Positions 15,420 through 31,504 of a DNA stretch of 54,784 bases are shown here, one piece after another. Position 1 is the stretch's first letter, and each line of letters starts with the position of its first letter. Where the stretch lies: the IMG/VR virus record IMGVR_UViG_3300028384_000897, positions 1 to 54,784 of that record; one strand, written 5' to 3'. The notes under the pieces were generated by a model. That model was given only the letters and a program-made list of their open reading frames with translations, was not told the origin of the DNA and ran no database searches. A program made the position numbers and the translations under genes. The DNA is from a virus.

Positions 15420-15679
15420 TAGTATTCACCGTACAGATCAAATTTCATTGGTTCAGGTTCTTCAACTTGTACTTCGTGTTTCTTAATTGCATATAATTTA
15501 CCATCTAAAGGAGCTAATCTGTACTCACCTTTAAATTTAGTTCTACGCATGTACATGGTAAGAGCCATTACCAGCCCTTCGATAGTAGTTCCTTGATCAA
15601 TAGTCAATTCCCAATTATCTCCAGGCGGTACTCTTGTAGCTATTAGCTCTTTTTCCTCCTCAATGATGATCTCGGCCAT
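15419..15679 (-). CDS. Small hypothetical protein
   Basis: This 86-residue acidic soluble protein has a mixed alpha/beta composition and no recognised motif. It is wedged between queF and the J-domain gene, with end-to-start overlaps on both sides (15679 and 15419), so it is certainly part of the same operon. Function unknown. Confidence 0.7.
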   Translation of the reverse strand: MAEIIIEEEKELIATRVPPGDNWELTIDQGTTIEGLVMALTMYMRRTKFKGEYRLAPLDGKLYAIKKHEVQVEEPEPMKFDLYGEY

Positions 15680-16590
15680 TACTGTCTTAGAGTTTTAGCG
15701 ATTCTATAATCCGTATCGGTAAAGAAATCTGGGATAAATCTTGAATGAGTAGCTCTAATAGGATTAATATCTAAGCCTCCTCTTCTAGTATATAAACAAG
15801 ATACCATAAGGTCTTCTGGTTGGTAAGCATCAGTCAAATGCTTAAACACCATTTCACAAATCTCTTCATGGAAATGACTTACAGTTCTATGAGATACAAT
15901 ATACTTAGCCACCGATTCAGGAGAAGGAATATTTTTTCCTTTCATTCTAATAAATACATCTCCCCAATCTGGTTGATTAGTAACTCTACAATTTGATCTT
16001 AATAAATTAGACCTTAACTTTACTTCTTTAGCTTCCTCTACTACAGTTTCAGTCTCTAATTGTGAAGCATCTGAAGAGAATGCGGTAAAATCGATTTGAT
16101 CTAAATCTGTAATATCAGCTAAATCTTGATAACCTTCGAATGATAATGCTTTACCGTCTTCTTCATCAGTATAGAAACTTACTGTCGTATCTGTTTCAAG
16201 TAACTTATCTAAATCGGCTTTTACTCTTTCTTCAATTTCTAAAATACACTCTACTGTATTATCTCCTAATCTAGTCATATTAAATGAATTTAAATACAGC
16301 TTAATAGACTTAGATTCTACGTGATATTCGGAATCTGAAGAACATACTATTTTTAACATACCCGCTACAGGTAATCCTTTAGTAGTAATTGCTGATACTT
16401 CGTAACAGTTCCAGGTATCTACACCTACAAAGTCTTTATTAGTTAACCCGTAACCTTCTCTATTTAAATAACGAGGTACTTTAACTAGCAACTCAGGAGC
16501 ATAGGTATCTTTATACCCATCTCCTCCTACTTTACCTAAATGCTTTGACGCAATGTCTACTACTTCTTGATAATTTTTTACTTCTGCCAT
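15679..16590 (-). CDS. queF: QueF, preQ0 reductase (long form)
   Basis: This 303-residue NADPH-dependent 7-cyano-7-deazaguanine reductase converts preQ0 to preQ1. It is the long, two-domain type like E. coli QueF. Visible are ESKSIKLYLNSF (residues 92-103), the catalytic Cys201 in SNCRVTNQPDWG with Asp208, SHFHEE, and the C-terminal TRRGGLDINP. Its presence implies the DNA-modification route goes to preQ1, not only preQ0. It starts 3 bp after the nuclease-like gene. Confidence 0.93.
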   Translation of the reverse strand: MAEVKNYQEVVDIASKHLGKVGGDGYKDTYAPELLVKVPRYLNREGYGLTNKDFVGVDTWNCYEVSAITTKGLPVAGMLKIVCSSDSEYHVESKSIKLYLNSFNMTRLGDNTVECILEIEERVKADLDKLLETDTTVSFYTDEEDGKALSFEGYQDLADITDLDQIDFTAFSSDASQLETETVVEEAKEVKLRSNLLRSNCRVTNQPDWGDVFIRMKGKNIPSPESVAKYIVSHRTVSHFHEEICEMVFKHLTDAYQPEDLMVSCLYTRRGGLDINPIRATHSRFIPDFFTDTDYRIAKTLRQ

Positions 16591-16593
16591 AAT

Positions 16594-16965
16594 TTATCCT
16601 TTAAATAATTGTTTTTTGCCACCTTCATAAACATATGCGTGACCGTTTTCTATTAATAGTTTATTTAAAGAGGTTTCTTCTCCGTCGATATCAATAAATA
16701 TTTCAGCAAGTACTCGACCATACTTACCTTTTCCGAAAGATTGAATAACAAATTTACCGTCATTCATTTCCATATATTTTTTAGTAAACTCAGAAGCAGC
16801 TATTCCTAACTTTTTTTCTTCTAAATTTCTTGTTCTCTTTTCCCAGGTATCTACACCTTTGAATCTTAATCTAGCTTTAGTCCAAACATCAAAACCTAAA
16901 TCGATCATAACGTCTGCAGTATCGCCGTCTACTACTCTAAGTAGTTTTGCTCCGTATCTATACAT
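16594..16965 (-). CDS. Staphylococcal nuclease-like (thermonuclease) domain protein
   Basis: This 123-residue protein matches the SNase fold: VVDGDTADVMIDLGF, RLRFKGVDTWE (the RLxGIDxPE-like motif, here with Trp), a helical middle, and GKYGRVLAEIF (the YGRxLA motif). SNases are calcium-dependent DNA/RNA nucleases. The catalytic Arg-Glu-Arg set appears largely present (R in RLRF, E in WEKR, R in YGR). There is no signal peptide, so it would act in the cytoplasm. Confidence 0.75.
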   Translation of the reverse strand: MYRYGAKLLRVVDGDTADVMIDLGFDVWTKARLRFKGVDTWEKRTRNLEEKKLGIAASEFTKKYMEMNDGKFVIQSFGKGKYGRVLAEIFIDIDGEETSLNKLLIENGHAYVYEGGKKQLFKG

Positions 16966-17338
16966 TTTTACTTTTTAAATATTTAACTAAATAACTTGCT
17001 GTTTTGTAATTTGTAGCAAGTGGAATATTATGAACATCACAAAGTCTCATCAACATTGAAATGTCTACATCATGAGGATGTTTATCCAATGGATCTCTTA
17101 AAAATATAACTAGGTTAATTTTACCTTCTGTAACTTGGGCTGCTATTTGTGCATCTCCACCTAGAGGTCCTGATTGTACAGTTTCTACATTAGTTATACC
17201 TGCATGTTTTACATGCTTACCCGTCGTTCCTGTTGTTATAATCCTAACATCTTCTCTATTAAAAAACGGTAATCTTTTAGAAACAAAAGCTACCATTTCT
17301 GCTTTTTTATTATCGTGCGCTATTAATGCAATTTTCAT
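16958..17338 (-). CDS. mgsA: Methylglyoxal synthase
   Basis: This 126-residue protein closely follows MgsA, which converts dihydroxyacetone phosphate to methylglyoxal and phosphate. Catalytic positions are kept: His8 (AHD), the GTTG phosphate loop, Asp62 in GPLGGD, and Asp82, His89 and Asp92 in RDPLDKHPHDVD. It is shorter than E. coli MgsA at both ends. It overlaps both neighbours by a few bases. Possible purposes are relieving phosphate limitation during sugar flux, or a toxic metabolite; both are inference. Confidence 0.88.
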   Translation of the reverse strand: MKIALIAHDNKKAEMVAFVSKRLPFFNREDVRIITTGTTGKHVKHAGITNVETVQSGPLGGDAQIAAQVTEGKINLVIFLRDPLDKHPHDVDISMLMRLCDVHNIPLATNYKTASYLVKYLKSKNV

Positions 17339-17691
17339 ACTGTATTCTTAAAAAAATGTATCGTCCAAGCTATTAATCCGTTAAGTTGTAGTGCTACTAA
17401 ATTCCACTGTCTTCTTGAAAAGACTTGTATCAGTACGCATATAAATCCTACAATAAAGAATACTGGTTCAACAGTCCATTGTCCGGCAATCAAAAATCCA
17501 GTACCCATATATCCTATACGAGAAGACATTCTCTCCATAGGAGTTAAACGTCTATCTCTAACCAATATCCTCAGTATACTATTAGTCCATGTTCTTTCGC
17601 AAGATCTACATGTCTTTTTTCTAGTACCGTCTTTTTTCTTTTTATACCTAAAATCAGGTTTGTTATACTTACAGACGTTGCATTTTCTCAT
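17335..17691 (-). CDS. Membrane protein with N-terminal zinc-finger cysteines
   Basis: This 118-residue protein starts with CNVCKYNKPDF and CRSCE, two CxxC pairs likely to bind zinc. A basic linker and two or three hydrophobic helices follow from about residue 60 to the end. The combination is unusual. It overlaps mgsA and the P-loop kinase at its ends by ATGA-type coupling. Function unknown. Confidence 0.65.
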   Translation of the reverse strand: MRKCNVCKYNKPDFRYKKKKDGTRKKTCRSCERTWTNSILRILVRDRRLTPMERMSSRIGYMGTGFLIAGQWTVEPVFFIVGFICVLIQVFSRRQWNLVALQLNGLIAWTIHFFKNTV

Positions 17692-18206
17692 TTAATAAAT
17701 TCCATTATCTGTTCTACCCTTTGCATCGGAGAACCAGTAATAGTCAAATAAGGTTGACGTACTCCTCCTAGTACAGCCTTAAACTCATCATCTACTTGTT
17801 TTCTCCATTCCTCATTAACACTTCTAACTCCATCATCTATCGAATCAAATTCAATAGGAAAGTACACATAATGAGTATATTCATTCTTAACTCTATTCCA
17901 AGTATCTTCAATATAGTTATATGCCTTTACAGATAATTTATCCATAAACTTAGAATATACGAGTAAATCCATATAACACCTATCTAGCACTAAGTTATAA
18001 GGTTGAAGTAAAGCTTCTAAATGAAAACTACTAATAGCTAACTGAGTAGCATCAGTACCTTCTTCATTAATAGGGAATCCATAACCGCCAACAGTTCTAG
18101 TAGACTCATTTACAAATTCATACTTAGGTAACTTATTTTTAAGTAATTCATAAACAGTAGTCTTACCTGTACTACTAGCTCCTACTAATGCTATTCTTGT
18201 TATCAT
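17688..18206 (-). CDS. P-loop NTPase, probable nucleoside/NadR-like kinase
   Basis: This 172-residue protein has Walker A GASSTGKTT at residues 9-17, an ESTRT segment, and an LDRCYMD motif similar to the LID/DRx region of NadR- and deoxynucleoside-kinase-like AAA_28 proteins. The substrate cannot be told. It is the first gene downstream of a good TTCGTATATT promoter motif, so it may lead the operon that runs through mgsA and queF. Confidence 0.65.
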   Translation of the reverse strand: MITRIALVGASSTGKTTVYELLKNKLPKYEFVNESTRTVGGYGFPINEEGTDATQLAISSFHLEALLQPYNLVLDRCYMDLLVYSKFMDKLSVKAYNYIEDTWNRVKNEYTHYVYFPIEFDSIDDGVRSVNEEWRKQVDDEFKAVLGGVRQPYLTITGSPMQRVEQIMEFIK

Positions 18207-18223
18207 AAAACCTATTTTACTAT

Positions 18224-18233
18224 AATATACGAA
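18224..18233 (-). promoter_or_regulatory. TTCGTATATT-type promoter motif
   Basis: The coding strand reads TTCGTATATTATAGTAAAAT, 18 bp before the ATG at 18206. Confidence 0.6.
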
Positions 18234-18253
18234 TTATTATTCTACTTACAAAC

Positions 18254-19018
18254 TCAATGCATGTCTTTTTGATACTTCTCAACAAACCATACATACTCTT
18301 TATAGTTTTGAATCTTTTTAACTTCTTCTCTTAAGAATTTACCATCAATCCATTGTCCGTCATCAAAATCTAATTCTTCCTGTAAATCGTGGCGAAGTAA
18401 AGTAAAATCAAACCAACGATCCATTTCTAATATATCTACTTCTTTTTCTGTTAAGTACTTACCTAACGATCTGTGATAGTCTAATTTATAGAAAGCATTA
18501 TCATCAGCATCTACATAGGTTGTATATAAATCAGCTAAAATATCTAAAGCTTCTCTGTTAGCAATTAAAATTTTATCTTCCATTCTCTTAGTATCCTCTT
18601 GGATCCTATCTAAATGAAAAACTGTAGGTTTATTTACTTTACTCCAGGTCTCTATAAAATTGTTAAATAATACTTCACTATCAGTTTTATCCTCAAATTT
18701 TAAGTCCGGACGAGCAATGATATAGAAGTCGTATTCTTTATTAAACTTTTTACGAAATTCAACACTTTCTCTTAAACAGTAATAATACTGTATAAGTGAA
18801 CCTGTTTTGATAACAGGCTCTTTAATTAATTGTAAATTATCTATTGAGTATAGATTACCTTCCTTTAATTGCTTTACAGAGTAATTATCTTCCCAGAATG
18901 TACCGTATGTATCTACCTGGTATCCAAACTCATTTAACTTATTAATAAATGAGCCTAAAGTTTTTTGCAACTCCCACCATCGGAGCTGACCGAACAATTC
19001 TATACTAACTCTTTTCAT
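18254..19018 (-). CDS. Possible glycosyltransferase-like protein
   Basis: I choose the ATG at 19018 because it overlaps the upstream stop as ATGA; the longer frame from 19048 adds only a weak extension. The 254 residues begin KRVSIELFGQLRWW and contain YDFYIIARPDLKF. That pattern is seen in some uncharacterised glycosyltransferase-like proteins (I/F-G-x-R start, then R-x-D-L). The call is weak. It is translationally coupled to the formyltransferase, so it might act on the modified base or on a surface sugar. Confidence 0.4.
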   Translation of the reverse strand: MKRVSIELFGQLRWWELQKTLGSFINKLNEFGYQVDTYGTFWEDNYSVKQLKEGNLYSIDNLQLIKEPVIKTGSLIQYYYCLRESVEFRKKFNKEYDFYIIARPDLKFEDKTDSEVLFNNFIETWSKVNKPTVFHLDRIQEDTKRMEDKILIANREALDILADLYTTYVDADDNAFYKLDYHRSLGKYLTEKEVDILEMDRWFDFTLLRHDLQEELDFDDGQWIDGKFLREEVKKIQNYKEYVWFVEKYQKDMH

Positions 19019-19554
19019 TGTAATGTAGCACGTAGAAAATTGCACCACATATAGAGACTTCTATCTCTTAGAATTCTAAATAGATCATCAAGAGTATTAT
19101 TCATATTATTAAACCTTTCTTCCATAATAACTCTACCCTCATCAACTCCAGCAGTAACGTGATGAATTACAGCTCCTGCAATAGGATACTTACCTTCAAA
19201 AGCTCTAACTTGAGGATCTTTACCTTTTAGTTCTGGGTATTCAGTTATAAGGCCAGGATGTCCGTTAAACACTCTAAACTTTTCGCAAATCTCAGGAGGC
19301 ATAATTCTCAACCAACCATGTAACGTGATTATAGCTTCCGGAAAGTAAACTAAAAAGTCTTCATACTCCTCTAAAGTAGGTTTATTGTTAAGAGTAAAAA
19401 ACCCTTGCTTTACTATTCTTTCATCAATAGTTCTTAAATGATCAGGTCTTTCATTAGTATATATTCTATCCGGCCATCTTCCTAATGACTCTGCAATATC
19501 TGCGATTTCTGCTCCTGTCTGACTAAAAAATGCTATCCAAACCTTCGTTTCCAT
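19015..19554 (-). CDS. Formyltransferase, DpdN candidate (preQ1 formylation)
   Basis: This 179-residue protein has the formyl-transferase fold of PurN. The catalytic triad is kept: Asn97 and His99 in FNGHPGL and Asp138 in AGVDEGRVI. It lacks any C-terminal sugar-binding domain. It overlaps the DpdA-like gene by 32 bp. A formyltransferase, DpdN, has been predicted in phages carrying 7-(formylamino)methyl-7-deazaguanine in DNA. With QueF in the same region, that role fits best (inference). Alternatives are purine synthesis (PurN) or sugar N-formylation for the surface genes further right. Confidence 0.7.
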   Translation of the reverse strand: METKVWIAFFSQTGAEIADIAESLGRWPDRIYTNERPDHLRTIDERIVKQGFFTLNNKPTLEEYEDFLVYFPEAIITLHGWLRIMPPEICEKFRVFNGHPGLITEYPELKGKDPQVRAFEGKYPIAGAVIHHVTAGVDEGRVIMEERFNNMNNTLDDLFRILRDRSLYMWCNFLRATLQ

Positions 19555-20347
19555 TTGCGTACCATCTAAATTTTTGAATATTAGTTCTAATACTAGATAA
19601 AGTATCAGGACTTACATCTTCGTTAATTAATTCAAACAACTTTTGAGATTCCTTTGACCATAAGCCACCTGATTTGTATTCAATACCTTTTATTCCATGG
19701 ACCACTGGATTACTAGTATCCAAAGAATATAACCAATTATAGTTAGCATGTTTATAAAATTGAAATTCCTGAGGTAAACCACAGCCTAGTAAATGATGAG
19801 GTTTATCTTCATTAATAACACCGTCTTTAAGTAAATCTCCAAGTAACTTAACACGTCCTAGCATCCAACTAACATACTTGTTAGGATGAGGTACAGACTG
19901 TGTATAATACGAATAATCGAAAGATATAGCAATCATATCTACATCTGCTTCTTTATTCATATAATTGTAACAATCTACTATCTCATCGTAAGTTTTACCT
20001 TGAATAACTCCTATTTTGCCGCTACCTTCATAACCAAGACCTTTATTATTCCAGTCTTCCATTTGTTTGCAAGTTTTATCAGCATTCTCTAAAGCATCTG
20101 GAACAATATACCAAGCAGGTCTAATTTCGTTAACCCACTTATCAAACTTATTAGCATCGAAAGCCTCTTCTAACTCAAATATTGAATTATCTAATATTAC
20201 TTCTCTACCTTTTAAGATAGCTTTTTTAAACTGAGCTAGATACTCTGGATCTTCTTCAAATAAATGAACCAAAGCATAATCGTAGTCAGTAAACTTTTGA
20301 ACTTCTTCAAAAATACTTTTAGGACTTTCGTGTGCTATTTTAATCAT
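19523..20347 (-). CDS. dpdA: DpdA-like 7-deazaguanine DNA transglycosylase
   Basis: This 274-residue protein resembles the tRNA-guanine transglycosylase superfamily in the short phage form. Key segments are ILDNSIFE (Asp53), WYIVPDALENADKT, IGVIQG, IAISFDY, KPHHLLGCGLPQEF and SLDTSNPVVHG (Asp210, the likely nucleophile). The C-terminal zinc Cys cluster of bacterial Tgt is absent, as in DpdA proteins. It would exchange guanine in DNA for preQ1 or preQ0. The queC, queD, queE, queF and folE genes nearby support DNA, not tRNA, as target. The subfamily is not assigned. Confidence 0.8.
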   Translation of the reverse strand: MIKIAHESPKSIFEEVQKFTDYDYALVHLFEEDPEYLAQFKKAILKGREVILDNSIFELEEAFDANKFDKWVNEIRPAWYIVPDALENADKTCKQMEDWNNKGLGYEGSGKIGVIQGKTYDEIVDCYNYMNKEADVDMIAISFDYSYYTQSVPHPNKYVSWMLGRVKLLGDLLKDGVINEDKPHHLLGCGLPQEFQFYKHANYNWLYSLDTSNPVVHGIKGIEYKSGGLWSKESQKLFELINEDVSPDTLSSIRTNIQKFRWYANGNEGLDSIF

Positions 20348-20525
20348 TATCTAATTTAGTGTTTAACGTATTGGTAATATTTTTAAGATAACCTTCAACC
20401 TTTGTCATCTCTTTATCTAGCCTAGAATTATAGCTGAAGACTTCTTTGATTGCCTTATCAGCTATCTCTAAAGGAACATACTTTACTCCATCTACTACCT
20501 TAATATGTTCGTTAAGATTAATCAT
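20340..20525 (-). CDS. Small coiled-coil-like protein
   Basis: This 61-residue protein consists of a short N-terminal beta region (VVDGVKYVPLEIADKA) followed by a polar helix. It overlaps dpdA at its stop and the MazG-like gene at its start, both by 8 bp, so it is part of the modification operon. Function unknown. Confidence 0.6.
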   Translation of the reverse strand: MINLNEHIKVVDGVKYVPLEIADKAIKEVFSYNSRLDKEMTKVEGYLKNITNTLNTKLDND

Positions 20526-21060
20526 TAAAAAACTGTTTTAAGTTAGGTCTAAAATAATTAATACTTTTCATTACTTTCCTATCAGCTGTTCGGTAGACAA
20601 TATACCGTCCTTCCGCAATCTTCTCAAAATGGCAGGCCTGACCTTGTTCCTCACTTCTCTTGCTGACGGTCTGTATGGCTTCTTCTTCAGTTTTGCAAGC
20701 TTTCGACATATTACTAGCTTGTACCTCTTGATATGCCGGCCATATCTTATCCTTAAGACCGTGTAACATAGTACCGTTCCCAAGGGAAACATAAGTAATG
20801 TCGCACAAAGCGTCCAAAACTTCCACAATGTCGCCTCTCTCGCAAGCTTCTCTATACTCTTCGAGTTCTTCAAGGATAAAGTCATAGACGAATTGCCATT
20901 CTTTTTTCTCTGGGATTGTGGGTTCATAATTGTTAGGTTTACCGAATGTTGCGTTAAAAATTTCTACTTCGTTAACAAAAGGAACATCAGCACTTAGTCC
21001 AGTGCTAGGATCCATTCCTGGTTCAAGATTTTCAAATAATGATAATTGTTTACCTTTCAT
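20518..21060 (-). CDS. MazG-like nucleotide pyrophosphohydrolase
   Basis: This 180-residue protein contains the all-alpha NTP pyrophosphatase pattern: FILEELEEYREAC (EExxE), then VEVLDALCDITYVSLG (the ExxDAxxD part). Phage MazG-like enzymes hydrolyse dNTPs or ppGpp-like nucleotides. Another member type, phosphoribosyl-ATP pyrophosphohydrolase, has a similar fold. Its place between folE and dpdA suggests control of the guanine nucleotide pool (inference). Confidence 0.75.
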   Translation of the reverse strand: MKGKQLSLFENLEPGMDPSTGLSADVPFVNEVEIFNATFGKPNNYEPTIPEKKEWQFVYDFILEELEEYREACERGDIVEVLDALCDITYVSLGNGTMLHGLKDKIWPAYQEVQASNMSKACKTEEEAIQTVSKRSEEQGQACHFEKIAEGRYIVYRTADRKVMKSINYFRPNLKQFFND

Positions 21061-22085: not shown

Positions 22086-22496
22086 TTATTTTTTATTATC
22101 CAAATAATCCTGTATAGGTTTTGAATCTTCTTTTTCCCAAGGGTAGACTATCCACCCAAAATCTTTATCAATTTTTTCACCGTAGTAATCAGGTTTAAAA
22201 GTTGATACTTCTTTATATTGAAGAGCAGCATACTTAGGGTTAGGAAACTGCTCTTTTAATTTTGAAAATGTTTTTCCTGAATCTGCAATATCATCGATAA
22301 TTAGTAAATTAGGGTAATGGTCACTTTTATACTCCATGTAAGGTATATCGAATCTATGTGAATACAAAATTGCTAGTAATGTACCTCCTCTAGGTACTCC
22401 AGTTACATAAGTTATTTCTTCTTTACATTGCTCGTAAATAATATCGAGAAGATTATTTATATCGTCCCATGTTAAATAGTGTTTTTTTATACTCAT
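22086..22496 (-). CDS. Phosphoribosyltransferase-like protein
   Basis: This 136-residue protein has the PRPP-binding loop NLLIIDDIADSGKTF and an upstream TGVPRGGTLLA loop, as in type I phosphoribosyltransferases (xanthine/hypoxanthine type). It is short, lacking much of the hood domain. It overlaps the 2OG oxygenase gene by ATGA-type coupling. Base salvage of a purine or deazapurine is possible; the substrate is unknown. Confidence 0.75.
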   Translation of the reverse strand: MSIKKHYLTWDDINNLLDIIYEQCKEEITYVTGVPRGGTLLAILYSHRFDIPYMEYKSDHYPNLLIIDDIADSGKTFSKLKEQFPNPKYAALQYKEVSTFKPDYYGEKIDKDFGWIVYPWEKEDSKPIQDYLDNKK

Positions 22497-23017
22497 AATA
22501 ATGATTTGGATTTTCCCATATTGTATGCCGATAGTAGTAGAACTGCAGAATACCTAATACCTGATGTGACAGGGCATGCTTGATGCAAATAGTCGGAGGA
22601 AAATAGTACCGTATTACCTAATTCCTTAGATACAGTATACTCTTCATCATTTTCATCCCAAATTTTTAAATCCCCGCCATCATAATAATCGTTTAATTGT
22701 ATAGATAAAGTTCTATAATAAGCAGCATTATATGTAGATGAATTATCTCTATGCCTTTTAAATTGTTGATCTTTGCCGTACCTTAAAATTTTTATAGTTT
22801 CAGGAAGATTCTTAACTCCTAATACTTCTAATTTATTAAGAAGGAACTCTTTTAGTTTACCGCCTATTTTTATTTTACTTTGATCGGAAGTTCTAGTATG
22901 ATTATATCTACCTTCAGGGTAAGCAGCACTATAAACTAGACTTCTAGAAAAGTCTTTAGCGCAATCAAGTATAAATTCACAATCTTGTTTACTAAAGATA
23001 ATCTCTTCTTTAATCAT
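22493..23017 (-). CDS. 2-oxoglutarate/Fe(II) dioxygenase (prolyl hydroxylase-like)
   Basis: This 174-residue protein has the HxD...H metal triad in FKRHRDNSS and DYLHQACPV, with the 2OG-binding Arg in SGIRYSAVLLLS and GGDLKIWD in between. Such oxygenases are common in marine phages and can hydroxylate proteins, nucleic acid bases or small molecules. The substrate is unknown. A second, different one is at 30214-30708. Confidence 0.8.
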   Translation of the reverse strand: MIKEEIIFSKQDCEFILDCAKDFSRSLVYSAAYPEGRYNHTRTSDQSKIKIGGKLKEFLLNKLEVLGVKNLPETIKILRYGKDQQFKRHRDNSSTYNAAYYRTLSIQLNDYYDGGDLKIWDENDEEYTVSKELGNTVLFSSDYLHQACPVTSGIRYSAVLLLSAYNMGKSKSLL

Positions 23018-23186: not shown

Positions 23187-23487
23187 ATTCTAATCCAAAA
23201 AATTTATAGTTATTTTTAACAGCATCTAATTCTCCAGCATCTATAGCATCCTCTTCACTATCAAATATAGCTTCAACTGGGCATTCGGGAACACAAGCTC
23301 CACAATCAATACATTCTTCAGGGTTAATATATAAACTCTTACCTTGAAGTTCTTCTTTACTCATATTAGCTACTTCAGCACCAGCTCCATCGATATCTAT
23401 AGGTCCGTGAATGCAGTCGACAGGGCAAACTGCTACACAGGCTGTGTCACAAGTACTAATGCATGGAGAACCTATAATAAAACTCAT
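23176..23487 (-). CDS. Two-cluster bacterial-type ferredoxin
   Basis: This 103-residue ferredoxin has a first Cys set (PCISTCDTACVAVCPVDC) and a canonical second set CIDCGACVPECPVEA, so it should carry two iron-sulfur clusters. It overlaps queE by ATGA-type coupling and lies directly downstream of it. QueE is a radical SAM enzyme that needs an electron donor, so this ferredoxin may be its dedicated reductant (inference from position). Confidence 0.9.
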   Translation of the reverse strand: MSFIIGSPCISTCDTACVAVCPVDCIHGPIDIDGAGAEVANMSKEELQGKSLYINPEECIDCGACVPECPVEAIFDSEEDAIDAGELDAVKNNYKFFGLEYVG

Positions 23488-24260
23488 ACCTCTCTTTGAT
23501 CATTAAATGCCATAATATGAGCCCTACCTGTAAATCTCCATCCTCTATCTCTTACAAAATCCATTACTTTAGGATAAGATTCAAACAAAGAATCTCTGGT
23601 ATCCCCTGCTGGCATTGCCCATACTTTATCATCTGGTATATCTAAATCTTTTAAGAACTCTTCTACTTCATCTAGGATACTAAATTCTTTATCGAGTACA
23701 GGTTTAATATGATAATCTTTATGATACTCTATAGATTGTTTTATAGCTTCTTTATTTACTCTAAATCTATTGTGAGTTTTAATCATTTTTTCGTCGACCA
23801 CTTTTCCTTGAGGAGTAAGAGTCCCAACAACGGGGATACTATTACTAAATTTAGGAGAAATACTGAGAAGATCGATAGGATAATCAGTAGGAAGGAAATG
23901 AGATCCTTCGTTTTCAATAGTAATAAATATACCGTTTTCATGAGCAAAATGTGTTAGTTCATTAACAAGCTTTTTATGCATAGTAGGTGAACCTCCAGTA
24001 AGCATCATTTCTTTAATATGAGGATTCTCTTCATATTTTTTGATAATATCATTAAAAGAATATTTACCTTTTTCAGGATGAATCGAAGTATACCAACTAT
24101 CACACCAACCGCCTTCACCGAAGTAACATCTATGTGTACATCCAGTAGTTCTAATTACTATAGTAGGAAAACCTTGTCTACTACCTTCCGATTGAACTGC
24201 GGTATATACTTCTACTATAGGTAAATTTTTATCGTAATCTTCAATCCTGCCCAGGCTCAT
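23484..24260 (-). CDS. queE: QueE, 7-carboxy-7-deazaguanine synthase
   Basis: This 258-residue radical SAM protein carries out the ring contraction of 6-carboxytetrahydropterin to 7-carboxy-7-deazaguanine. It begins with VEVYTAVQSEGSRQGFPTIVIR, carries the cluster motif CTHRCYFGEGGWC (C-x3-C-x7-C, wider than the usual CxxxCxxC), then MLTGGSPTMH. The C-terminal half (VWAMPAG...) fits the family. It overlaps queD and the ferredoxin. Confidence 0.9.
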   Translation of the reverse strand: MSLGRIEDYDKNLPIVEVYTAVQSEGSRQGFPTIVIRTTGCTHRCYFGEGGWCDSWYTSIHPEKGKYSFNDIIKKYEENPHIKEMMLTGGSPTMHKKLVNELTHFAHENGIFITIENEGSHFLPTDYPIDLLSISPKFSNSIPVVGTLTPQGKVVDEKMIKTHNRFRVNKEAIKQSIEYHKDYHIKPVLDKEFSILDEVEEFLKDLDIPDDKVWAMPAGDTRDSLFESYPKVMDFVRDRGWRFTGRAHIMAFNDQREV

Positions 24261-24714
24261 ATATTGCTGAATTTTTATTATGTTCTCTAAATTCTACTTT
24301 AGCTATTTTTACCCTACCGTTAGTTTCCTTTACGATAAAAGGGTTAACTTTATTGTAGATAAACTCTGCAAATTTCTCTGCTCCTACTGCAGGTATGACT
24401 CGTAACTGAATAATACCTTTAGAACCTAGTCTTGTGAAAGAGTCTAAAGAAGGATCATCTTCAGCCATAACTACGGTATGGTCAAACATATAATCAAACC
24501 ACTCCTTAGGACTCATCCCATCAATTTTACCTTCAGCTCTCTTCATTCCACCGAAATCCCATACCCAGTTACGATTATCTAAATCTCCTTCAAAAGTTAA
24601 TTTAAACGATACGCCGTACCCGTGTAAGAATTTACAGTGAGTTGTTTTTGCTTTCCATTGACGAAAACAAGTAGAAAATCCGTCAAATACTTTAGTTGAT
24701 TTAAAATTTCCCAT
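24241..24714 (-). CDS. queD: QueD-like 6-carboxytetrahydropterin synthase
   Basis: The start at 24714 (MGNFKSTKVFDG, 157 aa) shares its base with the upstream stop (TAATG); a longer frame from 24774 adds an unrelated Cys-rich stretch. The pterin synthase pattern is FSTCFRQW...THCKFLHGYGVSF, with WVWDFGG and FDHTVV further on. In E. coli QueD the zinc ligands are three His; here the first position is Phe and HGH is HGY, with another His next to the catalytic Cys. This may be a variant family. Confidence 0.82.
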   Translation of the reverse strand: MGNFKSTKVFDGFSTCFRQWKAKTTHCKFLHGYGVSFKLTFEGDLDNRNWVWDFGGMKRAEGKIDGMSPKEWFDYMFDHTVVMAEDDPSLDSFTRLGSKGIIQLRVIPAVGAEKFAEFIYNKVNPFIVKETNGRVKIAKVEFREHNKNSAIYEPGQD

Positions 24715-24992
24715 TATACTAATTCTTCTATTATACCAACAACTTCTGATAACACTAAAATACCTGCAGCCCAAGGAAGGCTAAAAGGTATAAGTATATA
24801 ACCTAATATACGAATTCCTGATTTAATAAACGACACAATTTGGTGTTTTTTTGCGTCCGGATAGTTTTGGGATTGATTTGGAGAAGCTTTTACTGCTTCT
24901 TGATCAAGCAGATAATCTGCTCTTAATACTCTTCTTGATTCTGGATCTCTAAGAGAATCCATAATCTCTTTTTCTGTAGAATTATTTACCAT
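24714..24992 (-). CDS. Small protein with C-terminal membrane helix
   Basis: This 92-residue protein has a charged N-terminal half (SLRDPESRRVLRADYLLDQE) and one or two hydrophobic segments near the C-terminus (ILGYILIPFSLPWAAGILVL). It leads the queD-queE-ferredoxin unit, with queD coupled to its stop. Function unknown. Confidence 0.6.
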   Translation of the reverse strand: MVNNSTEKEIMDSLRDPESRRVLRADYLLDQEAVKASPNQSQNYPDAKKHQIVSFIKSGIRILGYILIPFSLPWAAGILVLSEVVGIIEELV

Positions 24993-26462: not shown

Positions 26463-26478
26463 GAATACCAGTATATAG

Positions 26479-26486
26479 TATAAATA
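26479..26486 (-). promoter_or_regulatory. Late-type promoter motif before fibre-like gene
   Basis: The coding strand reads GCTATTTATACTATATAC, 16 bp before the ATG at 26462. Confidence 0.5.
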
Positions 26487-26488
26487 GC

Positions 26489-26605
26489 TTAAAAGTTTGT
26501 ATAGTTAAAAGGATCTCTTTTTTTTAATTCTTTGATCTTTTTCTTAAACTCTCTGTCTTTTTTCCACTGCTGGTATTTACCTTTTATCCACTTAATTAGT
26601 CTCAT
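26489..26605 (-). CDS. Small basic protein (38 aa)
   Basis: ATG at 26605 opens 38 codons, Lys-rich, ending KELKKRDPFNYTNF. Similar tiny proteins with an RDPFxY ending occur, from memory, in other T4-like marine phages. It overlaps the end of the carbamoyltransferase gene by 14 bp. Function unknown. Confidence 0.55.
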   Translation of the reverse strand: MRLIKWIKGKYQQWKKDREFKKKIKELKKRDPFNYTNF

Positions 26606-28283
26606 TCCAAATAATATAATTGTTTATAATTAAATAGTCAATATCACTATTGACCAATCGTTCGATTGCATCTTCTGGAGTTAATGTGATAGTCTGGTCC
26701 TTTAAGTTAAAAGAAGTATTTAGTAGAAGTCCGAATCCAGTTAATCTATACATCTCAGTTAACAGCTTATGATACTTTTCATTCTGCTCTTCGGTTACTG
26801 TGTGAAGTCTAGCAGACATATCAATATGAACTGCAGCAGGAAAAGGTGTCTGACCGCCGAGTTTAGCTACAGGACGTGCTTTTATAACTTGATTCATGTA
26901 TGGAATATTCTCTTTATAGTTAAAGAACTTTTTCGATGTCTCTAATATAGCAGAAGGTGCGAATGGTCTAAATCCTTCTCTTTTCTTAATTACTAAATTA
27001 AGTTTTTCTCTCATATTAGGATCCTCTGGTGAAGCTAAAATAGAACGGTTACCTAAAGCTCTTGCTCCAAATTCCATCCTACCTTGGAACCAAGCTACAA
27101 TATTTTGAGCTTGTAATAATTCAGCAGCTCTTTGTATAAGTTTATCCTCTTCTAAATTTAAAGCTCTTAACGTCTTAGGACCATTTTGTATAGCTCTCTT
27201 AACTTGATCGTCGGAATATTCTGGTCCTAGAAAAGGATTACTGTTGCCTTTTCTATTACCTTTTCTTGTATAGGAATAAAGACAAGCACCGATAGCGGAA
27301 CCTGCATCAGAAGGAGCAAATGGAACATATACAGATTTAAATTTAGGAATAATTTTACCATTAGCTACTCCATTATATGCACACCCTCCACCAATACATA
27401 TATTATCGGAATTAGTCATATTTTTAGCTGTTTTAATTAACCTAAAAAACTGTCTTTCATATACTAACTGTAAAGCTGCAGCTAAATCTTTATGTTCTTG
27501 CTTTACTTCCTCTTCTGGTAAACGAGGTTGAAGATTTAATAATCTACATAATTTTTTAGTAAACATTATTCTATCACTATATTCCCATGCAAAGTACTTT
27601 TGTTTGATCCAGTATTTATTACTTGTATTCTTAAATACTGAGTGAAGTTTGTGATAGTATACATCTGGGTCACCGTATGGAGCTAATCCCATAACTTTAT
27701 ATTCTCCTTCATTAGGTTTAAAACCTAAAAATGCAGTTATAGTTGAATATAACATACCAAGAGAATTAGGAAAATCAATACTTATCTTCTTATCTAATTT
27801 ATTTCCTTCTCCATGCCATATAGTAGTAGTTTCCCACTCACCCACTCCATCAACAGTTAGTACAGCAGCCTCTTTATATGGAGAAGTTAAATAAGCGAAA
27901 GCAGCGTGAGATAAATGATGATCTACATACACTACTTTACCGCTGTAGCCAATAGTATTTTTGAGAAGTTTTTCTGGGTTCTTATTAACCCATTCTTTTA
28001 AAAATCGCCTTTTCGTAAAAAACGTTTTAATAGGATGTTTAGAAAATATCTTGAGAACTCTATCTTTTTTGAGTTCAGGATTTTCATACCAACATACTTC
28101 GTCAATTTCATTTACGTTTATTCCAGATTCTTCTAATATCCAATTTAAGGCATTGATCGGGAAACTGGGATCATGTTTAATTTTAGTAAATCTTTCTTCT
28201 TCGGCACCTAAAAGTACCTTACCGTCTTTTACTAAACAAGCAGCTGAATCGTGATAAAAAGCTGATATTCCTATTTGTATCAT
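26592..28283 (-). CDS. Carbamoyltransferase, NodU/CmcH family
   Basis: This 563-residue enzyme has the N-terminal IGISAFYHDSAACLV (Kae1-like ATPase fold), HHLSHAAFAY, TVDGVGEW, and the C-terminal YrdC-like part with GRMEFGARALGNRSIL and FRPFAPS. These are conserved family motifs. The family transfers carbamoyl from carbamoyl phosphate to sugars or antibiotics. Phage copies are usually linked to surface-sugar change. It overlaps the SGNH hydrolase start by ATGA-type coupling. Confidence 0.92.
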   Translation of the reverse strand: MIQIGISAFYHDSAACLVKDGKVLLGAEEERFTKIKHDPSFPINALNWILEESGINVNEIDEVCWYENPELKKDRVLKIFSKHPIKTFFTKRRFLKEWVNKNPEKLLKNTIGYSGKVVYVDHHLSHAAFAYLTSPYKEAAVLTVDGVGEWETTTIWHGEGNKLDKKISIDFPNSLGMLYSTITAFLGFKPNEGEYKVMGLAPYGDPDVYYHKLHSVFKNTSNKYWIKQKYFAWEYSDRIMFTKKLCRLLNLQPRLPEEEVKQEHKDLAAALQLVYERQFFRLIKTAKNMTNSDNICIGGGCAYNGVANGKIIPKFKSVYVPFAPSDAGSAIGACLYSYTRKGNRKGNSNPFLGPEYSDDQVKRAIQNGPKTLRALNLEEDKLIQRAAELLQAQNIVAWFQGRMEFGARALGNRSILASPEDPNMREKLNLVIKKREGFRPFAPSAILETSKKFFNYKENIPYMNQVIKARPVAKLGGQTPFPAAVHIDMSARLHTVTEEQNEKYHKLLTEMYRLTGFGLLLNTSFNLKDQTITLTPEDAIERLVNSDIDYLIINNYIIWNETN

Positions 28284-28870
28284 AACTCCATTTCTTTTTT
28301 TAGATATTCAAACATTTGTTTATGACCTTTGATACCCCAGTGATGATCTGCATGTTTACTTTCTTTTGTAATAGTCGTAAACTTTCTCCACAGTAATTCA
28401 TCCCAGTAGTAGGCTTTAACTCTTCTTCTTTGAAAAGCAGTACATAAAAAATCGAAATTAGCTTGATTTCTTAGGTACACTTTATCTATGTGTTTTCTAA
28501 TATTTTTTAAAATAGCATCTGCTACTTGTTTACCTAGTAGAAGTTGACTATCCCTAATTGGCGCTACTCCAAAGAGACCTGCCTGCCAATGGTCTGGTTG
28601 ATATACGCCGAATCTTGCACATTTAGTCAAGCCTATTACTACTACATCGTTTCTCTGAATATCCTTATACCTATGTAGGATATTATCCCATATCATATCA
28701 TTAGATATACCGTGTACTCCGTGATTTTGATGTTTCATACCTAAATGGTCCGCTAATAATCTTGACCATATAAGGTGTTCTTTACCTTTATAAGTACCGT
28801 ATTGATGTTTATCGTCTGTAACACCTAATCCGGCTGTGAAAGAATCACCGAAGGCCCATAACGTATTCAT
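28280..28870 (-). CDS. SGNH/GDSL-family hydrolase
   Basis: This 196-residue protein starts MNTLWAFGDSFTAGLGV, a classic GDS block I with Ser10 as nucleophile, followed by NHGVHGISND (block II) and a C-terminal HADHHWGIKGH with the catalytic Asp-x-x-His. It could remove or add acyl groups on polysaccharide. The N-terminus overlaps the end of the epimerase gene. It is unlike the hydrolase at 7611-8303 outside the motifs. Confidence 0.78.
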   Translation of the reverse strand: MNTLWAFGDSFTAGLGVTDDKHQYGTYKGKEHLIWSRLLADHLGMKHQNHGVHGISNDMIWDNILHRYKDIQRNDVVVIGLTKCARFGVYQPDHWQAGLFGVAPIRDSQLLLGKQVADAILKNIRKHIDKVYLRNQANFDFLCTAFQRRRVKAYYWDELLWRKFTTITKESKHADHHWGIKGHKQMFEYLKKEMEL

Positions 28871-29690
28871 ATAATCTATCTTTAGGCTCCCATCCTAGTT
28901 TTTCTTTAGCATCAGAATTCTCTCTAAGAGTAACTCTATAATTTCCAGGTTGGTCGTCTATATAAATAGCTTCTGTACCGAACTTGGTTTTAAACATCTG
29001 ATACACCTCGTTTATCGAGTGGTTTTTACCAGTACCTAATTCCCATGCATCTTCATGAACTTCAGTTCTAAACCCTATTCTATATAGACCGTCTACTATA
29101 TCAATAACATGAGTAAAATCTCTTCTTTGTTCTCCATCACCTACTATAGTAATTTTTTCACTATCTCTAACTTGTCTTCTCCAAATACCAATTACTGCTG
29201 CCCAATCACCTTCTATAATTTCATTAGGACCGTAAACATTATAGAATCTAGCGATTTCAATATCCATGCCGTATGTCTTTTTATACATTTTACATACTTC
29301 TTCGCCCATATACTTACAAGCCGCATACGGTGATTGATACGGATCATGCCACTTAGAAGACGAACCGGCATAAATCACTTTAGCACCAGTTCTTCTTGCT
29401 AACTCTAATACTTGCTGTGTGCCGTAAGTATTAACTCTATAAGTTTCATCGGGATTATTAAAAGAAGGCTGTATTCTGGAAAGAGCAGCAAGATGGTATA
29501 TTTTATCGTAAGTGCCGAACTCAGTTATAGTATCAATATCTCCTATATAATAGGTGCATCTGTTATGTTCGTTTTCTATTCTGCCGCTTGAGTAATCATC
29601 GAGACTATCTACATCATGACCTTCTTCAATTAACCTTTTAATTAAGTGATGTCCTATAAAACCAGCACCTCCAGTAACTAATACCCTCAT
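28845..29690 (-). CDS. NAD-dependent sugar epimerase/dehydratase
   Basis: The start at 29690 (MRVLVTGGAGFIGHHL) gives the glycine-rich Rossmann motif at residues 6-12 and overlaps the upstream stop as ATGA; an earlier ATG at 29729 adds only a Lys-rich tail. Further features are AGSSSKWHDPYQSPYAACKYMGE (catalytic Tyr-x3-Lys) and RFYNVYGPNE. The extended SDR type resembles UDP-glucose 4-epimerase. The 281-residue length is slightly short. It is coupled to the upstream reductase. Confidence 0.85.
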   Translation of the reverse strand: MRVLVTGGAGFIGHHLIKRLIEEGHDVDSLDDYSSGRIENEHNRCTYYIGDIDTITEFGTYDKIYHLAALSRIQPSFNNPDETYRVNTYGTQQVLELARRTGAKVIYAGSSSKWHDPYQSPYAACKYMGEEVCKMYKKTYGMDIEIARFYNVYGPNEIIEGDWAAVIGIWRRQVRDSEKITIVGDGEQRRDFTHVIDIVDGLYRIGFRTEVHEDAWELGTGKNHSINEVYQMFKTKFGTEAIYIDDQPGNYRVTLRENSDAKEKLGWEPKDRLYEYVMGLR

Positions 29691-30217
29691 ACTAAATTTC
29701 TTTTTTCTCTTCTTGTATTTTTTACACATAGATCACTTATTTCTATGTGATTTGGTGTGTTAATTATGAATTCTAGTATCCTAGACAATTCAGAAAATTT
29801 TAACTTATTGTATTGTTCAAAACTCCTGTTAGATTCTAGAGTACCTGGGTTAAAGTTAATAACTCTAACGCTTTTATTTGGATTAGTAGCACACAGTTCT
29901 TTTGAAAGGTTGTATAAATGCTTTTTATTTGAACTGTATACAGGAAATACCCCGTTAGTTTCATAAACGTTTGAAGTACCAAAATTGATAATCGTCTTAT
30001 TCTTACTAATCCAGGAATCGAAAAATAACTTTAACAGTCTCGATTGATCTATATTATTATAAGCGTGGTTTATAAATACGTCACAATTATTAAGTTTTGA
30101 AAAAACTGGTTTGATACCATCTCTTAAAGACGCTCCAATAATTTCATACTTATTAGACCAGTTTTCCGATAGATACTTACCTAAACCTCCTGATACTCCT
30201 GTTATACCTATTTTCAT
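29687..30217 (-). CDS. Short-chain dehydrogenase/reductase-like protein
   Basis: This 176-residue protein starts MKIGITGVSGGLGKYL, a TGxxGGxG nucleotide-binding motif, and includes NHAYNN and FGTSNVYET, with YSSNKKHLY a possible Tyr-Lys pair. It is shorter than a typical reductase. It probably works with the adjacent epimerase on a nucleotide sugar. Confidence 0.68.
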   Translation of the reverse strand: MKIGITGVSGGLGKYLSENWSNKYEIIGASLRDGIKPVFSKLNNCDVFINHAYNNIDQSRLLKLFFDSWISKNKTIINFGTSNVYETNGVFPVYSSNKKHLYNLSKELCATNPNKSVRVINFNPGTLESNRSFEQYNKLKFSELSRILEFIINTPNHIEISDLCVKNTRREKRNLV

Positions 30218-30708
30218 AATAACGAAACCTTGCTTAATTGTTTTTTAGTAAAAAATAATATAAAAGACCACCTAACACCCTCAGTTATTTTCGTAACTTC
30301 ATGTGGTCTGCTAGCTTTCATAGAGTATAATTTACCTACTTCTTTTTCTATAATATTATCAGGTTCATATTGCAAAAAATCTCCACCTGAGAATCTATCG
30401 TCTAATAAACACCCTACATTTAATACCTGGTCTGGGTATTTTATATCGTCTCTATGTCGAGAAAAAGCACAGCCAGCAGGATATCTATGTACAAAGATAC
30501 AAGGCATTTTATCAGCAGAATTATCAGGGTATCTAGGATTAAGATATTCCTTTATTCTATCGAAAATCCATTGTGTCTTTTCACCTCTCTCTAGAACCAT
30601 GTAATAATAATCAATAGAACCCTCAGCAAAGAGAGTCTTAGAGTGTGTTTCTCCAATCTCCTTACTGAGAGTTTTAATTGACTTACATTCCTCTAAAGTG
30701 AAATGCAT
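30214..30708 (-). CDS. 2-oxoglutarate/Fe(II) dioxygenase
   Basis: This 164-residue protein has FSRHRDDIKYP (HxD), SRPHEVTKI (distal His) and TEGVRWSFILFF (2OG Arg), with FSGGDFLQYE. Its short length is typical of marine phage oxygenases. It may act on a sugar or protein of the adjacent cassette. It differs in sequence from the oxygenase at 22493-23017. Confidence 0.78.
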   Translation of the reverse strand: MHFTLEECKSIKTLSKEIGETHSKTLFAEGSIDYYYMVLERGEKTQWIFDRIKEYLNPRYPDNSADKMPCIFVHRYPAGCAFSRHRDDIKYPDQVLNVGCLLDDRFSGGDFLQYEPDNIIEKEVGKLYSMKASRPHEVTKITEGVRWSFILFFTKKQLSKVSLL

Positions 30709-30709
30709 A

Positions 30710-31504
30710 CTAAGCAGCGTATTCGGCTAGTAGTTTTTCAACATGTGCTTTCGCAACTTCGTAACTAACTGGTCCAGTCTCGTCTTCATATTGAACGGGA
30801 TCATCAACACCCAAATTAATAAATGCTTCAATCCTTTCAACAGATGACGCACTTTTGTAATCAGAGTTTCCTGATGGGTATGGTTTGTACGAGGTATTCG
30901 TTCTTCTGTATACTTCGCTAAAATCCAATTCCAATGCTTCTGTGAGTTTTTCTCCATCTTTAAGAATTCCTAATTTGTCAGTTTCCAAGTAAGGAGTAAA
31001 GTACCCTACTTTCTCTGCTTCCCAGTTACCTATTCTAAAGGCAGCATCGTCAGCATCTCTAAACTCTTGTCTACAGTCTGGGTAGATAGCATGATCACCA
31101 GCATGAATACCTAACGCAATATCAGTATCTAAACCATTTGCATTAGCAGCTGATAAAGCTACAGCTTGAGTAATAGAAGCAAATATTTTATTCCTATTAG
31201 GAACAACAGTTGCTTTCATGTTATCTTCTTCGTAATGACCTTCTGGTACATCTTCACCACCTTGAACAAGGTTAGAATTTAACAGGTTAACTAAACCATC
31301 TAGTTTAATCACTTGATAAGTCACTTTTTGACCTTTATCTGCTAGATAATCGACCAATTGTTGAGCTCTTTCAAGTTCTACTCTATGCTTTTGACCGTAA
31401 TCAAAAGATAAAGCTGTTACGTTGTCATACTCAGATAAACATCTAAGTAATAATGTTGAGGAGTCCATCCCTCCACTAAGACTAACTACGACATTTTTTG
31501 CCAT
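30710..31504 (-). CDS. queC: QueC, 7-cyano-7-deazaguanine synthase
   Basis: This 264-residue ATP-dependent enzyme converts 7-carboxy-7-deazaguanine to preQ0. The PP-loop SLSGGMDSS is at residues 8-16, and the GIHAGDHAIYPDCR segment and VVPNRNKIF are kept. The usual C-terminal zinc site (four Cys) is absent: residues 203-224 read NTSYKPYPS...SDYKSASSVER, with Ser or other residues where Cys are expected. The gene stands about 6 kb from queD and queE. Confidence 0.88.
   Translation of the reverse strand: MAKNVVVSLSGGMDSSTLLLRCLSEYDNVTALSFDYGQKHRVELERAQQLVDYLADKGQKVTYQVIKLDGLVNLLNSNLVQGGEDVPEGHYEEDNMKATVVPNRNKIFASITQAVALSAANANGLDTDIALGIHAGDHAIYPDCRQEFRDADDAAFRIGNWEAEKVGYFTPYLETDKLGILKDGEKLTEALELDFSEVYRRTNTSYKPYPSGNSDYKSASSVERIEAFINLGVDDPVQYEDETGPVSYEVAKAHVEKLLAEYAA

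Follow-up and report, generated by a model that had tools for sequence, protein, structure and literature searches.

We find that a phage appears to encode a complete pathway for modifying the guanine of its own DNA to 2'-deoxy-7-(formylamino)methyl-7-deazaguanosine (fdPreQ1), a reading to which we give a probability of about 0.8. The genes lie together on the minus strand of the virus record IMGVR_UViG_3300028384_000897, of which the whole 54.8-kb stretch (54,784 nucleotides) was analyzed and is called the window below. Both fdPreQ1 and DpdN, the formyltransferase to which we compare one of the genes, have reportedly been described already; the new part is a comparative pattern in the position following the transglycosylase gene.

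The gene cluster

The minus-strand set comprises QueC, QueD, QueE, FolE, a MazG-like protein, a DpdA-like protein, a formyltransferase (FT), an AAA_28 kinase and QueF, as follows.

15679..16590, minus: QueF, predicted preQ0 reductase (preQ1-forming); Pfam QueF_N and QueF, solved QueF 3bp1
17688..18206, minus: AAA_28 P-loop kinase, beside DpdA; AAA_28 59 bits, phrog_2107
18254..19018, minus: window-specific protein between FT and kinase; start probably the ATG at 19018
19015..19554, minus: FT, DpdN-like, predicted to N-formylate preQ1 at its amine; Formyl_trans_N 5.5e-9
19523..20347, minus: DpdA-like, putative DNA guanine transglycosylase; phrog_19058 7.1e-52, TGT fold
20518..21060, minus: MazG/PRA-PH-like pyrophosphohydrolase; PRA-PH 39 bits
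21385..22053, minus: FolE, GTP cyclohydrolase I; GTP_cyclohydroI 151.4 bits
23484..24260, minus: QueE-like radical SAM 7-carboxy-7-deazaguanine synthase; phrog_2076 5.7e-49
24241..24714, minus: QueD-like 6-carboxytetrahydropterin synthase; PTPS 49.9 bits, probable ATG at 24714
30710..31504, minus: QueC, preQ0 synthase; PF06508 134.7 bits

In the proposed scheme FolE, QueD, QueE and QueC would convert GTP into preQ0, from which QueF would form preQ1. The DpdA-like enzyme would then exchange guanine in DNA for preQ1, probably using an aspartate nucleophile as in tRNA-guanine transglycosylase (TGT), and FT would N-formylate the aminomethyl group to give fdPreQ1. The chemical steps, the timing of formylation relative to insertion, the protection from restriction and the extent of replacement are inferred.

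A sequence-only reading of this DNA had named seven genes as a full set for making a modified guanine, inserting it into DNA and capping it with a formyl group. All seven are present at their positions on the minus strand, and the FT and transglycosylase genes, which it had described as overlapping, share 32 bp. The route it proposed, from preQ0 through preQ1 and DNA exchange to N-formylation, fits the gene content and order, the predicted fold, the invariant residues and the co-occurrence described below. The kinase and the MazG-like gene had gone unmentioned in that reading.

The window is probably a fragment of a larger genome, the long relatives being 160-177 kb. A megablast of its 12-32 kb region against phages gave no match, and we know of no isolate of this phage. 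The protein encoded at 18254-19018 has no Pfam match, no match in phages and no confirmed relative in viral_contigs, and the copy in the window is the sole one among the loci examined; its AF2 model (pLDDT 39) was discarded. Methylglyoxal-synthase-like and nuclease genes lie between the kinase and QueF.

Predicted enzymes of preQ0 and preQ1 synthesis

QueF scores above the gathering cut-off of both Pfam models (QueF_N 96.4 bits, QueF 62.1 bits) and below that of the NCBIfam model (238.6 against 293.45), and aligns with the solved QueF 3bp1 over 280 residues (E 2.9e-43). The hallmarks of QueF are an active-site cysteine and aspartate, a His-Glu pair and an ESKSxK motif. In the window protein ESKSxKLY, C201, D208, H241 and E242 are invariant in 97/97 aligned rows; here and below, rows shorter than 80% of the window protein were left out of the conservation alignments. 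QueF and FT (see below) both retain the residues expected of active enzymes.

QueC gives a strong match to PF06508 (cut-off 22), carries an SGGMDSS PP-loop and aligns with the solved QueC 2pg3 over residues 3-173. QueC usually has a zinc-binding cysteine cluster toward its C-terminus. This was not found in the window protein, which has SDYKSASSVER at that place, as do 17 of the 18 representatives with a QueC score of at least 150 bits; the eighteenth has SDYKSSSSIER. The usual radical-SAM motif is CX3CX2C, whereas QueE of the window has CX3CX7C; its three cysteines are identical in 50/50 rows, with a spacing that differs in at least one row (L158). QueE falls marginally below the Radical_SAM cut-off (28.4 against 29.5) and resembles the solved QueE 5tgs (E 1.8e-7), relative to which it has a five-residue insertion. 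The listed start of QueD, a TTG at 24774, lies 20 residues ahead of an ATG at 24714, and the gene is more likely 24241-24714. H46, C47, H51 and H99 (numbered from the TTG) are identical in 39/39 rows, and the protein has no match among PDB sequences up to E 0.01. In 80 close loci FolE was found in 73, the MazG-like gene in 76 and the kinase in 73.

The transglycosylase

The DpdA-like protein has no Pfam or NCBIfam match. It had been expected to group with phage DNA enzymes, and does so, with 74% identity to gp206 of Flavobacterium phage immuto, annotated as DpdA, and 40.6% (E 1e-45) to a protein of Campylobacter phage CP220, which belongs to the same PHROG, phrog_19058 (602 bits for the CP220 protein). 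An AF2 model (pLDDT 86.6, pTM 0.85) is predicted to have the fold of TGT. Its best Foldseek match is 2pot (E 1.5e-9), it superimposes on 2z1x in VIA-align with Z 18.6 over 241 residues (rmsd 3.1), and all 50 PDB fold matches listed are TGT or archaeosine TGT. Searching PDB sequences with the DpdA profile gave no match up to E 10, so that the kinship to TGT is one of fold. A CxCxxC-type zinc motif is carried by TGT, and is absent from the DpdA-like protein. D53, D84 and D210 are identical in 120/120 rows. D210 lies within a D-T-S-N-P motif and is a candidate nucleophile chosen by sequence conservation rather than by superposition on TGT, in which Asp280 is the position of the catalytic nucleophile (PMC3660597).

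The formyltransferase

FT exceeds the Formyl_trans_N cut-off (36.5 against 26.1 bits), and its similarity to known formyltransferases is partial, covering residues 74-149. Within this region N97 (77/77 rows), H99 (77/77) and D138 (76/77) form an Asn-His-Asp triad that aligns with the Asn-x-His...Asp of PurN. Among curated models PurN and PurU match best, both under cut-off; the PurN model TIGR00639 gives 39.9 bits against a cut-off of 150.1. Given this low score and the tie of the gene to dpdA and queF, we rejected assignment of FT as a PurN-type metabolic gene, in agreement with the sequence-only reading. When FT alone was used to search viral_contigs for close relatives none was confirmed, and relatives were gathered via DpdA. 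A homologue of 40% identity in a Microcoleus MAG has no DpdA in 16.5 kb and has an aminotransferase-like gene nearby (identified by eye), so the FT family can probably act elsewhere. Within the open-licence PMC literature there was no match for 'formylamino' together with '7-deazaguanine', and DpdN was not found among the papers listed on the subject.

Conservation of the cassette

We gathered 240 loci, including repeats from the same contig. Removal of 11 cut loci and of DpdA pieces shorter than 230 aa, followed by clustering at 95%, left 119 representatives. Every one of the 59 non-redundant FT loci having all four genes keeps the order DpdA-FT-kinase-QueF on one strand (59/59), and the association is therefore not a matter of chance. 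Of the 65 close loci whose sequence reaches 4 kb or more beyond DpdA, 62 contain both FT and QueF, three have QueF without FT and none has FT without QueF. QueF is not visible in 16 of the 78 representatives with FT, in each of which the contig sequence ends within 1.2 kb after FT. The FT gene starts no more than 300 bp past DpdA in 65/78, and 31/119 representatives have DpdA-kinase-QueF with no cap gene in between. A search for FT elsewhere in FT-less contigs, using FT profile A2 (which includes one typed PurN row), matched none of 26 records and 7/7 controls with FT; these 26 are a subset of the FT-less loci, mostly short contigs, for which absence is no proof.

A possibly exchangeable position after dpdA

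The position following DpdA, which we call the slot, is readable in 76 of the close loci. FT is its commonest occupant (71/76). In all five remaining loci the protein encoded in the slot is GNAT-like or GNAT-fused, with one score below the Pfam cut-off, and in four contigs that are more distant it is a stand-alone GNAT-type protein. These occupants fall into three types: in one the kinase carries a fused GNAT-like domain, in another an FkbH-GNAT protein is accompanied by a methylmalonyl-CoA-epimerase-like protein, and in the third, from the more distant lineage, the GNAT stands alone. Six slot proteins were scanned with Pfam, leaving out L245 and two (L059 and L065) that are 99-100% identical to L067. 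Acetyltransf_1 (cut-off 20.7) gave 22.9, 28.5 and 24.1 for L178, L209 and L218 and 44.1 for L067, which is of the FkbH-GNAT type, and Acetyltransf_10 (cut-off 23.6) gave 28.1 for L060; the GNAT-like domain of the L054 fusion scored 18.3, under its cut-off of 23.6.

The pattern was noticed post hoc in the FT-less loci, and then tested by an ORF control and by trees. For the control, Pfam was run on those 40 of the 50 extra ORFs from 62 FT loci that have at least 80 aa, without a match to any GNAT family at E <= 0.01. AU tests on the DpdA tree reject one common origin for the GNAT types (p-AU 5e-5), the groups having been named after the first tree was inspected. The more careful tree uses a hand-chosen 53 of the 120 rows; both trees used LG+G4, simpler than a mixture model, and L245, found later, is not included. 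Support in the careful tree is 72/98 for the small clade containing the kinase-GNAT pair and 93/69 for the FkbH pair, both weaker than in the quick tree, and 100/100 for the grouping of L053 with the FkbH pair.

We suggest that different enzymes acylating the preQ1 amine can take one another's place in the slot, that FT has been displaced on separate branches, and that the corresponding DNA would contain N-acetyl-preQ1 and another N-acyl-preQ1; we put the chances of this at about even. To our knowledge neither base is among the known 7-deazaguanine DNA modifications, and no report of acetylated preQ1 in DNA was found in the titles and abstract openings of the open-licence PMC papers listed. 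If the suggestion is correct, the DNA of the contigs named above may contain bases so far unreported, and a swap of one gene would quickly alter the surface of the phage DNA, a kind of change expected to be favored where phages and restriction systems compete in an arms race. Displacement of FT by acyltransferase-type proteins provides independent comparative support for its predicted role, the capping of the preQ1 amine by the slot enzyme. A GNAT of Aeromonas phage PX29 is presumed to modify an unidentified base (PMC8056088, crediting Iyer 2013).

Alternative explanations

The GNAT and FkbH-GNAT proteins could be unrelated cargo, for example for host takeover, and we regard this as a real if lesser possibility. 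In the stand-alone GNATs the acetyl-CoA loop is imperfect, with bulky residues after RxxG where G or A is usual, and the L054 domain is under cut-off. The FkbH-GNAT loci hold a homing-endonuclease-like ORF (identified by eye) that might drag genes along, and phage GNATs with other roles exist, such as Rac of the phiKMV-like phages (PMC7552054). Against this, accessory ORFs of FT loci yielded no GNAT, every FT-less close locus with a readable slot has a GNAT-like or GNAT-fused protein at that very place, and in one type the GNAT-like domain is joined to the cassette's own conserved kinase. These same replacements bear on whether FT might formylate another substrate, either a purine precursor, as PurN does, or a sugar amine, leaving plain dPreQ1 in the DNA. 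The curated matches to PurN and PurU, the setting of the Microcoleus homologue and the representatives with an empty slot would be in keeping with that. We nevertheless consider it unlikely, because FT was never seen without QueF in the eligible loci, mostly starts close behind DpdA, scores far under the PurN cut-off and is displaced at the same spot by unrelated GNAT-type proteins.

It is less probable still that the pathway serves to raise queuosine or preQ1 in host tRNA, with a transglycosylase acting on tRNA instead of DNA. We know of no step in queuosine synthesis for a formyl-capped preQ1. The fold is that of a tRNA-guanine transglycosylase, and a tRNA role has been considered by Hutinet 2019 for pathway-encoding phages lacking a recognized DpdA (PMC6884629). 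The window DpdA lacks any CxCxxC motif, and we rejected a tRNA target because its PHROG is shared with CP220, whose DNA is reported to be fully substituted. Modification of the phage's own DNA to fdPreQ1 remains our preferred reading.

Comparison with known systems

Cui 2023 reportedly described fdPreQ1 as one of four new phage bases and DpdN as the predicted dPreQ1 formyltransferase, and the DpdA3 subfamily is said to permit full replacement of guanine. Viruses with QueF homologues contain dPreQ1, as in Streptococcus phage Dp-1 and Halovirus HVTV-1 (PMC6884629). Like the window these have preQ0 genes and a QueF homologue; unlike the window no formyltransferase is mentioned for them in the available text of that paper, from which 'formyl' is absent.

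The closest arrangement is that of Flavobacterium phage vB_FspM_immuto_2-6A (NC_055915; host Flavobacterium sp. LMO8), with QueD-QueE-FolE-hydrolase-DpdA-FT-kinase-QueF in the same order as in the window. Its gp204 is annotated as a formyltransferase and gp202 is noted as QueF, with identities to the window proteins of 50% and 64%, respectively, beside the 74% for DpdA. QueC is nearer to the cluster in the window and further off in immuto, and the gene at 18254-19018 and those for the methylglyoxal-synthase-like and nuclease proteins are extra in the window compared with immuto.

In CP220 (Firehammervirus) the DpdA gene is likewise followed by a kinase of the window's type (phrog_2107). Unlike the window, neither FT nor QueF was found within 20.8 kb around DpdA, and no Campylobacter phage was among the records matching the FT or QueF of the window. 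In CP220 and CPt10, 100% of dG is replaced by dADG (PMC8306585), so the extent of replacement in the window phage may also be very high. The window thereby adds a well-defined relative to a DpdA-like family with reported complete guanine replacement.

Pathway genes of the window

All seven genes that had been named from the sequence alone, FolE, QueD, QueE, QueC, QueF, a DpdA-like transglycosylase (DpdA) and a DpdN-like formyltransferase (FT), lie at the positions assigned to them, and all are on the minus strand. QueF, FolE, QueD and QueC match their families above the Pfam cut-offs, as does FT a formyltransferase domain. QueE matches phrog_2076 (5.7e-49), with Radical_SAM marginally below its cut-off. 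DpdA is present by its match to phrog_19058 (7.1e-52), with no match in Pfam and NCBIfam scans, and its reading frame does overlap that of FT, by 32 bp. For QueD, 24714 is a more probable start than the listed TTG. The viral record is 54,784 bases in length, and is probably a fragment because its long relatives are of 160-177 kb. Two conserved neighbors lie beyond the genes first named, and are listed here after FT and DpdA.

19015-19554, minus strand: formyltransferase, FT
19523-20347, minus strand: DpdA-like transglycosylase
17688-18206: AAA_28 P-loop kinase, conserved neighbor
20518-21060: MazG-like gene, conserved neighbor

The kinase is retained beside DpdA in loci with FT, in loci lacking a cap gene (FT or another presumed acyl-transfer gene in the slot directly after DpdA) and in Campylobacter phage CP220 (dADG), and is thus linked to the transglycosylase rather than to the cap. 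Between FT and the kinase lies a further protein (18254-19018). Its start may be the ATG at 19018, in which case it overlaps the stop codon of FT by 4 bp; searches of the compared loci, phages and viral_contigs gave no relative. Staphylococcal-nuclease-like and methylglyoxal-synthase-like genes lie between kinase and QueF (16594-17338); among 40 accessory ORFs of FT loci these families account for 12 and one, respectively. QueD and QueC are separated (26592-30708) by a NodU-type carbamoyltransferase, a GDSL-like protein (under the Pfam cut-off), an NAD-dependent epimerase and a 2OG-Fe(II) oxygenase. A second such oxygenase is found at 22493-23017, and a GroEL-like chaperonin and both ribonucleotide reductase subunits at 9479-11116 and 32848-35550.

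QueC usually has a C-terminal cysteine cluster. This is missing from the window protein (30710-31504), and SDYKSASSVER replaces it in 17 of 18 representatives, with a near copy in the 18th; given this loss, the phage enzyme may work without zinc. The radical-SAM motif expected in QueE is CX3CX2C. The window QueE (23484-24260) has CX3CX7C, with a five-residue insertion at the cluster-binding loop; the three cysteines are retained in 50 of 50 aligned rows, and the spacing deviates in at least one (locus L158).

Conserved residues of the three key enzymes

The link between DpdA and the tRNA-guanine transglycosylases (TGT) is by fold, since the DpdA profile found no match to PDB sequences up to E 10. 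The AlphaFold model, built with 22 alignment rows, has a pLDDT of 86.6 and a pTM of 0.85. TGTs rank first in a structure search with this model (2pot, E 1.5e-9), and comparison with the preQ1 complex 2z1x gives Z = 18.6 over 241 residues. All 120 aligned rows have D53, D84 and D210, and 119 have Q116. Asp280 of TGT is given as the nucleophile in PMC3660597, and we propose that D210 matches it. A CP220 protein scores 602 bits against phrog_19058, the PHROG common to the window transglycosylase, to which it is ~41% identical. dADG is reported to replace 100% of dG in CP220 and CPt10 (PMC8306585), and Campylobacter phages had been assigned to a group without DpdA (Hutinet 2019, PMC6884629).

QueF aligns with the solved QueF 3bp1 over 280 residues, and all 97 aligned rows agree at its ESKSxKLY motif and at C201, D208, H241 and E242; its score against the NCBIfam QueF model is 238.6, below the cut-off of 293.45. 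Hutinet 2019 (PMC6884629) reports dPreQ1 in two viruses with a QueF-type gene, Dp-1 and HVTV-1. In FT, N97 and H99 are conserved in all 77 rows and D138 in 76 (with one gap), aligning with the Asn-x-His and Asp of PurN. Against the PurN model, however, FT scores only 39.9 bits, far under the cut-off of 150.1.

Association of FT with DpdA and QueF

Among 80 close viral loci reached via DpdA, 71 contain FT and 69 QueF. Where at least 4 kb follows DpdA (65 loci), both are present in 62, QueF without FT in three and FT without QueF in none. In the wider set QueF was not seen in 16 of 78 non-redundant FT loci, all 16 sequences ending within 1.2 kb after FT. FT starts within 300 bp after DpdA in 65 of these 78, and gene order is identical in all 59 loci where DpdA, FT, kinase and QueF were all found. 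DpdA also adjoins FT in a Clostridiales MAG contig (L247). FT lies ~6 kb from DpdA in three loci (L217, L225, L236), and in a Microcoleus MAG an FT homologue (L246:7995-8537) lies near kinase-like and aminotransferase-like ORFs (both named by eye), with no DpdA in the available sequence. The tie is therefore strong but not universal, and the homologue without DpdA makes other substrates for the FT family probable.

Possible exchange of the capping gene

FT is missing from nine of the 80 close loci. Four of these sequences (L004, L052, L058, L074) end at or just past DpdA, and all five others have a different protein where FT would be. In L054 and L060 the cassette kinase is fused to a GNAT-like domain (above the Pfam cut-off in L060, below it in L054, 18.3 vs 23.6). 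A 508-residue FkbH-GNAT protein occupies this place in L059, L065 and L067, at 99-100% mutual identity; in L067 it scores 151.2 bits for FkbH (cut-off 146.65) and 44.1 for Acetyltransf_1 (cut-off 20.7). Its gene is followed by that of a protein resembling methylmalonyl-CoA epimerase (Glyoxalase_4 41.6 bits, cut-off 27; 29.7 vs a cut-off of 114.95 for the epimerase model itself).

A wider search anchored on the CP220 DpdA revealed a stand-alone GNAT exactly between DpdA and kinase in L178, L209 and L218 (22.9-28.5 bits, cut-off 20.7). L245 has the same arrangement, with a protein 58% identical to that of L209 and DpdA cut short. In 49 further loci (31 representatives) DpdA, kinase and QueF are directly adjacent with no cap gene in the slot; barring a cap gene at another site, plain dPreQ1 is the product expected of them. 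Clustering at 95% gave 119 representatives: 78 FT, 31 cap-less, three stand-alone GNAT, two kinase-GNAT, two FkbH-GNAT and three others. Locus L221 (1436-4651) comprises FolE, a dUTPase-like ORF (by eye), DpdA, a kinase-like ORF and QueC, with neither QueF nor FT within the 10.3 kb available; this gene set would predict DNA modification at the level of preQ0.

A control set of 40 accessory ORFs, taken from the DpdA-QueF interval of 62 FT-bearing loci, gave no match to any GNAT family at E 0.01; nucleases and homing endonucleases were the most frequent matches. The FT profile matched seven of seven FT-bearing control records and none of 26 FT-less records, most of which are short contigs.

DpdA trees were calculated under LG+G4 by a quick search of 120 rows and a careful search of 53 chosen rows. 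The three GNAT types lie apart in the quick tree: the kinase-GNAT pair falls within a starred clade with seven FT rows, the FkbH-GNAT pair joins the FT locus L053 (starred) and the stand-alone GNATs form a separate starred clade. With the careful tree, AU tests on groups defined after the first tree was seen reject a single origin of the three types (p-AU 5.4e-5) and a common origin of kinase-GNAT and FkbH-GNAT (p-AU 1.2e-4). Support is 100/100 for L053 with the FkbH pair and 72/98 for a small clade around the kinase-GNAT pair, whose nearest neighbor is weakly placed (41/81).

The displacement of FT in these relatives suggests that the slot would serve to acylate the amine of preQ1, and that some relatives may carry acetyl or other acyl groups as caps. 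A plain acetyl cap might be supposed for every GNAT-type relative, but the FkbH domain points to another acyl donor, and the acetyl-CoA loop of the stand-alone GNATs is imperfect.

Proposed pathway and comparison with known systems

From the genes, their order and association, the fold and the conserved residues, the most likely pathway is one in which GTP would be converted to preQ0 and this reduced to preQ1, which the transglycosylase would exchange into DNA and FT would formylate on its amine. We infer the substrate, timing and extent of modification.

The nearest known relative is Flavobacterium phage vB_FspM_immuto_2-6A, with the order QueD-QueE-FolE-hydrolase-DpdA-formyltransferase-kinase-QueF as in the window, DpdA annotated under that name and QueC farther off. 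Identity is 74% for DpdA, 50% for FT and 64% for QueF, and in the phage collection only immuto phages (four records) have FT matches that span 80% or more of the window protein. fdPreQ1, DpdN and DpdA3 were reportedly described by Cui in 2023, and the window system is presumably of that kind. None of the papers listed in our searches of the open-licence literature describes capping-gene exchange, and as far as those papers show this apparent exchange is the new part.
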